Assembly (NCBI RefSeq): GCF_007747995.1
Contig: NZ_CP036276.1
Span: 2,905,001-2,969,000, forward strand
Length of the DNA stretch: 64,000 nucleotides
From: Symmachiella dynata
GTDB lineage: Bacteria > Planctomycetota > Planctomycetia > Planctomycetales > Planctomycetaceae
Direction: 5' to 3'
The position numbers were made by a program, and so were the translations under genes. This document shows positions 52,704-59,060 of the stretch, piece by piece (the first letter of the stretch is position 1; each line of letters begins with the position of its first letter). The notes beneath the pieces are model-generated. The model did no database searches. It was not told the origin of the DNA and saw only the letters and a program-made list of their open reading frames with translations.

Positions 52704-53055
52704 TCTGACGGCCCCATTCGGGGTGGACGACTTCACTTGAACGGCTATCGATTTCTGAATCGCTTTGATGGGGAGAATGGCGCGGAATTTGATCCGCCGT
52801 CTACGTCGCTCGGGACATAGAAGAAAGTGTCGAGTGGCCGAGTCCGCAAAAGGGCTTTGCCCATCAGCAGTTATTGCACAAGTGGCAAACAAACTTGTGG
52901 GAAATCGAGACTGATTTTGCGCGAACCCGTCTTGACCCTGTGTGTCCCATCTGCAACGATACTTCTATCGGGTCGTGGAAACGCACACGACGGACTATCC
53001 ACCCGTGACGTGGTCGGGGCTGGCGCACCGGTCGAAGCGGGAAGTTCTGTTGGGG
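52704..53055. other. Region upstream of a candidate small RNA
   Basis: About 350 bp without a convincing protein gene. TTGACC at 52931-52936 could be a -35, but the spacing to GATACT downstream is 20 bp, so promoter assignment is weak. Small GC-rich inverted repeats (GTCGTG/CACGAC around 52974-52993) occur. Confidence 0.35.
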
Positions 53056-53070
53056 AAAGGAGGTGGTCTA

Positions 53071-53115
53071 GTGGAATATGTTTGTTGTAATAGCCAGCGA
53101 GGTGGTTCCGCCTAG
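53071..53115 (+). CDS. Possible 14-residue peptide ORF in the candidate RNA
   Basis: GTG 53071 to TAG 53113-53115 encodes [14 protein letters not shown]. It sits 7 nt after AAAGGAGG, the best ribosome-binding site I can see in the window. Its stop codon lies inside the CTAGAC arm of stem A, so translation would disturb the fold. The vicinal Cys pair at positions 5-6 could bind metal or act as a Cys-codon sensor. A coding role is unproven. Confidence 0.35.
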
Positions 53116-53200
53116 ACGACAGCCGGCGGGCTGTCGAAGTTGATGGCAGCCACCGACTCGTAAGGATCAACATTGATCCGTATTTACGAGAAACAACAGA

Positions 53201-53237
53201 GGCCCGGTTCTCGATGTGAGAGCCGGGCCTTTTTTTT
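53201..53237 (+). terminator. Strong rho-independent terminator
   Basis: GGCCCGGTTCTC (53201-53212) pairs with GAGAGCCGGGCC (53218-53229), 12 pairs including one G-U, with loop GATGT, followed by eight T residues at 53230-53237. Confidence 0.92.
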
Positions 53238-53241
53238 ATTA

Positions 53242-53328
53242 GTAGGCAGTAGGCAGTGGGCAGTGGGCAGTGGGCAGTGGGCAGTGGGCAGTGGGCAGTG
53301 GGCAGTAGGCAGTGGGCAGTGGGCAGTG
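53242..53328. repeat. Heptamer tandem repeat (GGGCAGT)
   Basis: About 12 copies of a 7-bp unit GGGCAGT, with three copies reading AGGCAGT. It lies directly between the terminator and the stop of the convergent gene. Confidence 0.95.
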
Positions 53329-53339
53329 ACGGGGCTGTT

Positions 53340-54605
53340 TTAGTTGAACCAGATGGCGAAGCCGAAGAATTCTCCGCGGAAGACGCGCATGAGTCTTTGC
53401 CAGACGCGGGGGTCGGTGAGGGGGCCGTCTTCTAGGTACGGGTCGGCTGCGGTTCCCGATATCCAGAGGACAAGATCGAACTGTCGTGGCTCGGTGAAGA
53501 CGGGCCGTAGGTTGATTCCGCGGGCTTGCGATGCCTGGTCGCCTCGCCAAAAGGGAATCAACCGCTTGCCTTGGAGGAGCAACTCCATTTCGTCTAAGAA
53601 CTCGTGCCAGGCGTCGATCATCTCTTGCCGCACACGGACGTTGGGCAACACGCCGGTCTGATTCGGATTGGGCAACCATTCATGATCGTCGTCGTTTTCG
53701 GCCAGAATGCGTTTCCACGACTGGCGACTTTGTTCGATCATTGCTTCGAGATGCTCGAGCGCATTCGTCATGCGTTCCGGGGCGACAACCTGAAAATTGA
53801 TCAGGTGAATAAATGCAACGATGTCGAAAAGACCGTTATTGATCCACCCGGTTTGCGGCTTACTTTCTTCGGTCAAATACACATAGGGCGTTTTGTTGTT
53901 GGAGATCAACAGGTGTCCCGCTCGTTCAAAAAGCTCGTGACCATCGTACGCCAATGCGATGTCGCAAAATGCCGACAACAAATGGCAATACCCCCGCAGC
54001 CAATGCACATCCCCGCCGTCGAAGGCAATCAGGAATTTTTCGCCAGCGGCTTGGTCTCCGCCGCGAGTGACGGTTGCTAGCAGTTTCCAAAGAGCTTCGT
54101 TTTGGTCGGCGTTTCCGTCGGAATTCAAGTCCAAACGAATGCGGCCGAAATGTAGCGGCAGTTTGACATCGGTGGTGTCGACTTTCGCCAGCGTCGCCTC
54201 GGCGACTGTTAGCTTGGCCAGAAAGGTCTCCAGGATCTTGCCCCCCGCCTCGTAGGTCATTTCCTCGGGATGGGGATTCTTGGGAATTGGTAAACGCAGC
54301 AGCGGGATCTGTCCCGCAACGAACCGCGACGTCCGCAATCCGTAGCGATGGTACGATTGTCCCAGATGTTCGATCGCCTGCAGAAACTGCACGACTCCCA
54401 GGCTGAAGCGTGCCTGTTGGTCGTCTGGTTGTTGGGCGATCAATTTTTCCAAGGCCGCCGCTGCTTCGGCCAACTCCCCTTTCTCTAGGTAGCTCTCCAC
54501 CACCGGTGGCTGCGGGGCCTCGTTCGCGGCCACGGCGTAATTGGCCGCTGGATGTAACAACAAGAACGCGGGCATGATCAATAAACAACAGTGGCGGACT
54601 TTCAT
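53340..54605 (-). CDS. Exported TPR-like protein of unknown function
   Basis: 421 aa from ATG 54605 with signal peptide ([24 protein letters not shown]). A single tetratricopeptide-like pair is visible at about 40-80 ([32 protein letters not shown]). A Ca2+-loop-like motif [15 protein letters not shown], resembling a dockerin/EF-hand pattern, lies near residue 165. The rest ([42 protein letters not shown]) is unassigned. The function is unknown. Confidence 0.6.
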
Positions 54606-54788
54606 CGGTCGGTTCCCCATTCATTGCGGCGGCGGAAGTGCGCGCAGCAGCGAGCAGCGTAAATCCTCGGGTGCTTCGGATTCCGCTATTCGGTTGCCGC
54701 AGGCGAAGTTTCTCACTCAGACGCGACCGTTTGTCGTATATCACGCCGGTTCACAAGAATTTTCTGAAAAACCTATGGAACTCCGAAT

Positions 54789-57730: not shown

Positions 57731-59060
57731 CACAACTGTCCGGTTTAATTCTTCGGTTCTTGTCGTAACTCTCTATGAAATTCAACACTTTCGGCAATTT
57801 TCAGGCGCGCACGACTTCAACTCACGGGGGTGATGTCGCCATCCTTTTTGTTCTCTCTGGCAAAAAGGAGCCGCGTAATGTTCGAAGGTCAGATGGTGTT
57901 TCCACAACTGTTGGCGTTTCTCCCGCGACGGATATTGGACAATTGCGTGCGACGCTATCACGGCAACAAACGTGTTCGTGCGTTGTCGTGTCGCGATCAG
58001 TTTTTGGCCATGATGTTTGCGCAATTGACCGCGCGGGAAAGTTTGCGCGATATCGAAATCTGCCTCACCGCCGTACAGTCGAAACTGTTTCATGCCGGGT
58101 TTCGCGGGCCCATCAAACGCAGCACGTTGGCCGATGCCAATCGCCTCAGAGATTGGCGGATCTGGCAGGACTTGGGATTGGCTTTGATCGACCGGGCGCG
58201 ACAACTGTACGCCGCCGACCCGTTGCCCAGCGAGTTGCAAACCGCTGCCTACGCGTTGGACGCCACGGTTCTCAATCTTTCGCTGACGTTGTTTCCTTGG
58301 GCTCCTTCGCAGCGCGACAAAGCGGCGATCAAACTGCACACGCTGCTCGACCTGCGAGGCAATATCCCCTGTTTTTTGCGGATTTCGGGCACAAGAACTC
58401 GCGACTGCGCGATGCTCGACGAAGTGCCCGTCGAAGCCGGATCGCTGTACGTGATGGATCGCGACTACAACGATTACGGCCGTTTGCACCGGCTTCATCA
58501 AGCGGGAGCGTTCTTCCTGGTGCGGGCCAAAAGCAATCTCACCTACCGCCGCCAGAGATCGCAAACCGTGGATCGCACGACGGGATTGCGGAGCGATCAA
58601 ATCATTCTGCTCAAAGACCGCCGAACGTTTCGGAAGTATCCCGACCGCCTGCGTCGCATCACATTTTTCAATGCCGAGACGCGCCGCCGTTTTGTTTTCA
58701 TTGGCAATCATTTTTTGCTTTCGGCAGCCGACCTGGTGGAGTTGTATTGGCGGCGTTGGGACATCGAACTGTTTTTCAAATGGGTCAAACAACATCTGCG
58801 AATCAAACACTTTGTGGGCAATACTCCCAACGCAGTGCGGACACAAATCTGGATTGCAGTGAGCACTTATGTGCTCGTCGCCATCCTCCGCCGAGAATTG
58901 CGGATCGAACGGACGATGTCCGAAATCTTACAGATTCTGAGCGTCACAATTTTCGAGAAAACCCCTATAAAAACAGTGTTAAACGAGATTCAGTTTCAAT
59001 CCCAGGTACGGCAAAACCATAAACAGTTATCATTGTTCGACTTATAACCGGACAGTTGTG
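57731..59060 (+). mobile_element. Complete IS4-family insertion sequence
   Basis: 1330 bp bounded by perfect 15-bp inverted repeats: CACAACTGTCCGGTT at 57731-57745 and its complement at 59046-59060. A 9-bp direct duplication flanks it. It carries one intact transposase and no passenger gene. Perfect ends, duplication and open frame point to a recent insertion. Confidence 0.93.
57878..59047 (+). CDS. IS4-family DDE transposase
   Basis: 389 aa from ATG 57878, chosen for AAAAAGGAG 7 nt upstream; an in-frame start at 57830 is less likely. The N-terminal DUF4372-like domain has FPQLLAFLPRRILDNCVRRY and SCRDQFLAMMFAQLTARESLRDIE. The catalytic triad is Asp in YALDATVLNLSL, Asp in SLYVMDRDYNDYG and Glu in YWRRWDIELFFKWVKQHL (the Y-2-R-3-E-6-K signature). 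The stop overlaps the right inverted repeat. No frameshift or internal stop. Confidence 0.95.
   Translation: MFEGQMVFPQLLAFLPRRILDNCVRRYHGNKRVRALSCRDQFLAMMFAQLTARESLRDIEICLTAVQSKLFHAGFRGPIKRSTLADANRLRDWRIWQDLGLALIDRARQLYAADPLPSELQTAAYALDATVLNLSLTLFPWAPSQRDKAAIKLHTLLDLRGNIPCFLRISGTRTRDCAMLDEVPVEAGSLYVMDRDYNDYGRLHRLHQAGAFFLVRAKSNLTYRRQRSQTVDRTTGLRSDQIILLKDRRTFRKYPDRLRRITFFNAETRRRFVFIGNHFLLSAADLVELYWRRWDIELFFKWVKQHLRIKHFVGNTPNAVRTQIWIAVSTYVLVAILRRELRIERTMSEILQILSVTIFEKTPIKTVLNEIQFQSQVRQNHKQLSLFDL

Follow-up and report, generated by a model that had tools for sequence, protein, structure and literature searches.

Small mRNAs with an extended Shine-Dalgarno (SD) sequence were reportedly described by Hahn and colleagues in 2017, as rreB in the Bradyrhizobiaceae and rreR in the Rhodobacter/Roseobacter group. 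The rreB RNA is said to be a 165-nt Bradyrhizobium mRNA having a 17-nt SD, a GTG start and a 14-amino-acid ORF, and to sediment with 30S, whereas the ORF of rreR, found in Rhodobacter relatives, reportedly encodes 18 amino acids. To our knowledge, these extended-SD small mRNAs of Alphaproteobacteria were described without a known function. A tiny ORF and a regulatory RNA are also combined in rnTrpL / peTrpL of Sinorhizobium, a dual-function attenuator sRNA for which both the RNA and the peptide act in trans (PMC7298713, PMC10117765).

A planctomycete RNA, for which rreB and rreR are the closest known kind, was found in Symmachiella dynata within a 64,000-nucleotide stretch of DNA that was analysed as a whole (the window). 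Sequence comparison indicates that a genuine stand-alone small RNA gene of about 271 nt lies at approximately 52967-53237 on the plus strand, laid out 5' to 3' as promoter-like boxes, 5' hairpins, extended SD, GTG-initiated 14-codon ORF, alternative hairpins and terminator. An earlier note on this DNA had begun the element at 53056; the stretch 53056-53237 proved to be the 3' two thirds of the gene, and the conserved portion begins about 90 nt further 5', with hairpins and a promoter-like element. This putative promoter (52932-52960, +), read from the sequence, consists of TTGACC (52932-52937), a 17-nt spacer and AACGAT (52955-52960); a TTG is positioned 38-46 nt 5' of hairpin H1 in nearly all of 74 members examined, and a strict sigma-70 scan returned no site at the element. 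Hairpin H1 (52972-52991, +) has the arms GTCGTG and CACGAC around the loop GAAACGCA, conserved as NNACGCR, and its stem retains at least 5 pairs in 75 of 86 members through dozens of different, compensated arm sequences. A second 5' hairpin (53013-53033, +), with CTGGC in the loop and followed by GAAGCGGG, also has compensated arm variation in relatives, as judged by inspection.

Toward the 3' end, the 13-pair stem that had been remarked upon is present at 53157-53190 (stem D, +; CTCGTAAGGATC...GATCC...TTACGAG) in both the MFE and centroid structures, and the strong terminator is also in place, as a predicted intrinsic terminator at 53198-53237 (+) that is the gene's own. A terminator was predicted in 68 of 84 members, compared with 12 of 84 on the opposite strand and 19 of 420 shuffles. 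The folding z-score is -5.5, with 0 of 200 shuffles equally stable. No same-strand gene follows the RNA, as had been stated, the next gene being convergent (53340-54620, minus strand). Directly 3' of the terminator is a tandem array of the 7-base unit AGTGGGC (12.6 copies, 53241-53328), the unit being scarce or absent in the close relatives L002 and L003. A DDE transposase with DUF4372 is encoded at 57830-59047 (+).

The SD had been described as a 10-nt complement of the 16S 3' end; this segment, AAAGGAGGTG, is present at 53056-53065 as the sole exact copy within the window, but the length given was too short. The extended SD, GGAAAGGAGGTGGTCTAG (53054-53071, +), forms 16 contiguous pairs (2 of them G.U) with the mature 16S tail CTGGATCACCTCCTTT, and 18 when two precursor bases are included. 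An rRNA was not found in the window's own genome, and the tail was therefore taken from relatives, in which the 16S terminus reads ...CGGCTGGATCACCTCCTTTCTAAGG, and CTGGATCACCTCCTTT is followed by CTAA. Within the whole 7.77 Mb genome there is a single occurrence of AAAGGAGGTGRTCYAG, and the contiguous pairs with the 16S tail number 12-20 in 83 of 86 members and 16-20 in 50 of 86. The motif GGATCA(CC), which matches a portion of the 16S tail exactly, was also observed in the stem D region (53157-53190) and in relatives; 24 of 86 members have GGATCA 3' of the ORF, versus 2 for the reversed motif, and such a tail match might base-pair with the SD of the same RNA.

The 14-codon ORF was located, as reported, at 53071-53115 (+), with a GTG start, 14 residues and the stop TAG. 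An ORF is present in 86 of 86 members; in two of these (L020 and L259) the script chose an out-of-frame start, and in-frame ORFs exist in both. The start codon is GTG in 67 members, TTG in 17 and ATG in 2, usually 5 nt past the GGTG of the SD. Most ORFs have 12-16 codons and the length differences between them preserve the frame; comparative evidence of this kind indicates that the tiny ORF is real. The pair of Cys codons that had been singled out in it is not conserved. The conserved part is Gln-Arg-Gly-Gly (QRGG) near the peptide end, kept by way of synonymous changes (CGA, AGA, CGG and AGG; CAG and CAA; GGT and GGC), and residues of the N-terminal half are free to vary. Values of pN/pS are 0.29 for the QRGG codons and 0.15 for RGG, versus 0.73 for codons on the N-terminal side, and owing to overlapping RNA constraint and shared ancestry these are not clean dN/dS. 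Together, the substitutions argue for selection on the amino acids of the QRGG end. In one member (L011), Gly-Gly is retained by way of other codons and the RNA partner strand is altered to match; outside the class, mostly Arg-rich peptide ends remain. A Cys-responsive leader was considered and set aside, several members being without Cys, as was the T-box resemblance of AGGTGGTTCCGCC, a run of in-frame codons that has no gene downstream.

Covariation, which the earlier note had proposed as a check, was found for three helices (P1, S1:S2 and S2:S3). The stem said to hold the stop codon is present in the MFE structure but, by inspection, is not kept in relatives; kept instead is the pairing of the last ORF codons with a downstream CCACC. 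This helix, P1, joins GGTGG (53101-53105, +), within the Arg-Gly-Gly codons of the ORF, to CCACC (53150-53154, +) and was evaluated by covariation and by a permuted duplex test. Paired cells amount to 96.4%, and 5 double changes were counted against 0.3 expected. In each of two sets the ORF end was duplexed with matched and with permuted downstream strands: for 17 divergent phylum members, whose sequences differ, the matched strand gave the better pairing, to an extent reached in 0 of 2000 permutations, and the same matched-versus-permuted preference was seen in 79 class members. In the folding model, the probability of P1 is approximately 0 for the window's own sequence.

Two competing stems had also been proposed, and their strands are present at 53118-53124 (S1), 53129-53135 (S2) and 53145-53151 (S3). 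The S1:S2 hairpin, GACAGCC-GGCG-GGCTGTC (53118-53135, +), has a near-invariant CGRCGG loop and is 91.3% paired, with 50 double-change cells versus 19.0 +/- 3.3. The alternative S2:S3 hairpin, GGCTGTC...GGCAGCC (53129-53151, +), shares S2 and excludes S1:S2; it is 91.2% paired, with 17 double-change cells versus 5.7 +/- 2.2 (reached by 2 of 500 shuffles) in an alignment that had not been fitted to S2:S3, and since S1 resembles S3, part of this support could stem from conservation of S1:S2. Partition-function folding, which gives equilibrium in-silico values, yielded mean probabilities for the free RNA of 0.53 for S1:S2 and 0.21 for S2:S3. With the stop codon covered by an in-silico ribosome, the means became 0.00 and 0.56, respectively; S1 is covered by construction in this calculation, so that the loss of S1:S2 is no finding and the gain of S2:S3 is a prediction. 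Upon stop-codon occupancy, S2:S3 stands above S1:S2 and rises in 72 of 86 members and fails to do so in 14, and in the window's own RNA S1:S2 goes from 0.99 to 0.00 and S2:S3 from 0.01 to 0.94.

The gene is present in one copy in its own genome. Blastn detected it in 32 of 59 relatives. Of 398 genomes of the class, 281 were matched by a covariance model, each of them once with the exception of one genome. In a sample of the phylum, the first covariance model matched 40 of 246 genomes, and a second, with divergent members included, matched 89 of 244, one per genome, 53 of these being outside the class; the out-of-class matches are weak (26-51 bits) and the second model was trained partly on them. 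Those out-of-class members that were read by eye retain the extended SD, the tiny ORF and the terminator, and in most cases a hairpin of the CGRCGG type. The conservation in relatives that the earlier note had asked after thus extends across the class and phylum, and a copy number nearly fixed at one per genome suggests a core role. Across the 20 loci compared, the flanking genes show no conservation. A mobile copy was rejected, the gene being at a single locus with no plasmid match, and so was tmRNA, for which a separate gene exists elsewhere in the genome (163 bits) and no Rfam match was obtained at the locus. Searches of Rfam gave only sub-threshold matches for the small RNA, and those to Pxr, sau-5971 and miRNA were dropped as mostly reflecting the terminator. 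With no Rfam family matched, a well-supported new family could be curated.

Conservation, covariation, peptide selection, non-conserved neighbours and an own terminator all lend support, at the level of sequence, to the earlier suggestion of a stand-alone dual-function sRNA or translation-responsive element. The RNA appears to be translation-linked by design, and the gene probably reports ribosome or translation status. The specific reading preferred here, with a confidence slightly better than even, is that of an extended-SD small mRNA in which a ribosome at the ORF end is predicted to refold the hairpins, giving an RNA state that would report ribosome availability or translation. The comparison on which this reading is based comprises one copy per genome, a long 16S-tail match, a non-ATG start, a selected peptide end, and exclusive hairpins whose controlling strands overlap the ORF or lie right next to it. 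In the proposed sequence of events, the long SD would grip 30S subunits, and initiation from the non-ATG codon would be slow. With no ribosome at the ORF end (state A), the ORF end would be paired with CCACC and S1:S2 would be closed; a ribosome at the stop codon would melt the ORF-end helix and cover S1, whereupon S2 would re-pair with S3 (state B), and the state B fold may alter RNA stability or the strand shown to a partner. The net effect would be the conversion of ribosome availability, or of ORF translation, into an RNA state.

Counting against such a switch is the strong translation that usually goes with a perfect SD; a plain peptide gene therefore has to be reckoned with. The sole product of the small mRNA would then be the peptide ending QRGGxA, and the 3' hairpins would merely protect the transcript. 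Amino-acid selection on QRGG, seen with synonymous substitutions in its Arg, Gly and Gln codons, and a perfect SD at regular spacing, are what such a gene should have; an N-terminal half that varies freely, mostly just Arg-rich ends left outside the class, GTG or TTG starts in 84 of 86 members, and the conservation of two exclusive hairpins are not, and the account is considered unlikely. The hairpins might alternatively serve a trans-acting base-pairing sRNA, its seed being the CGRCGGG region, free in state B, and the ORF gating exposure of this seed to target mRNAs. A near-invariant CGRCGG loop, a stand-alone gene with a terminator and a hairpin switch would all accommodate this role, but the loop could be kept for hairpin stability alone, and a seed function is judged quite improbable.

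The extent of the 16S-tail match also brings to mind a ribosome decoy or storage RNA that titrates 30S subunits or the anti-SD, with the ORF incidental. Both the 16-20 contiguous pairs in 50 of 86 members and the downstream tail mimic GGATCACC in about 24 of 86 would be expected of a decoy, which would however have no need of a selected reading frame and QRGG end; this role is very unlikely. The leader ORF, exclusive stems and terminator look attenuator-like, as if the RNA were a transcription attenuator or riboswitch leader of a downstream gene, yet the downstream gene is not conserved, the next gene is often on the opposite strand, as here, and no Rfam riboswitch was matched, leaving this explanation scarcely credible. 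Attenuation of a neighbour gene was in addition rejected on the grounds that neighbours are not conserved, an RND/HlyD neighbourhood being present in few loci and not systematically. The preferred reading of ribosome-driven refolding can be broadened to that of a phylum-wide, single-copy housekeeping RNA sensing free ribosomes, a branch of an ancient bacterial class of RNAs with a tiny ORF and complementarity to the 16S tail (Planctomycetota, Alphaproteobacteria, Myxococcota and Krumholzibacteriota) that would turn ribosome occupancy into an RNA signal in trans; in this broad form the proposal is conceivable though doubtful.

The distribution of related RNAs was surveyed by a scan of GTDB for the exact 18-mer AAAGGAGGTGATCCAGTG. 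At least 80 readable loci were obtained, and an ORF of at most 30 codons comes next in 78 of the 80 matches listed; as a control, ordinary AGGAGG sites in these loci precede equally short ORFs in 8 of 31 cases. The loci among the matches listed are mainly from Alphaproteobacteria, and also from Phycisphaerae, Krumholzibacteriia and Myxococcota-type genomes. Three recurrent peptide types were observed in loci L109-L188 (VSRxxLExxVGT, VSHC and CHLAGIAR), together with a Myxococcota type, VDIDCTYTAGEVVHF. In Rhodobacterales loci (L109-L181), but not in planctomycetes, the small RNA is often 60-170 nt past three conserved, clustered genes (F4-F2-F1). Two kinds of locus, L138 (VSYLKRCHLAGIAR, 14 aa) and L170-type (VSRVILERRVGTACGGVF, 18 aa), fit the reported descriptions of rreB and rreR, and by inspection no peptide homology of the planctomycete ORF to VSYLKRCHLAGIAR or VSRVILERRVGTACGGVF is evident. 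Pairing of the ORF end, strong in the planctomycete RNA, is lacking from the VSHC group and borderline in Rhodobacterales, and is not supported as a trait of the alphaproteobacterial RNAs in general.

Among other known RNAs, rnTrpL / peTrpL shares with the planctomycete RNA its small size, a 14-aa ORF, alternative hairpins and a terminator, but is a trpE leader with a leaderless ORF (PMC7298713, PMC10117765). The planctomycete RNA lacks a downstream gene, and its SD is extreme. The Caulobacter sRNA CC2171 (Rfam RF01867) has in common the GAAAGGAGGUGAUCCAGUG start region, a tiny ORF readable in the consensus, and a terminator; the planctomycete RNA gave a weak, full-length alignment to RF01867 at 28.3 bits, below the gathering score of 75, and the likeness lies mostly in the SD and terminator. 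No description of the planctomycete branch, of its conserved exclusive hairpins, or of the QRGG peptide end was found in the RNA family libraries or literature searched.

In summary, the planctomycete RNA and rreB/rreR are alike in being stand-alone small mRNAs with SD:16S complementarity of at least 16 nt before the sORF (16 or 18 pairs here), a GTG start, an ORF of 14 or 18 codons (14 here), a terminator of their own and conservation within a clade. The planctomycete RNA differs in its phylum, its QRGG end, its extra 5' hairpins and its CGRCGG hairpin. The extended-SD small mRNA is thus a kind already known, of which the planctomycete version is a new branch, separate because neither peptide nor RNA fold is shared with rreB/rreR. 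Its presence throughout a phylum suggests that the kind is widespread, and, having a peptide end under selection and covarying, exclusive hairpins linked to the ORF, it provides the kind to which rreB and rreR belong with a testable mechanism, that of translation-driven refolding.
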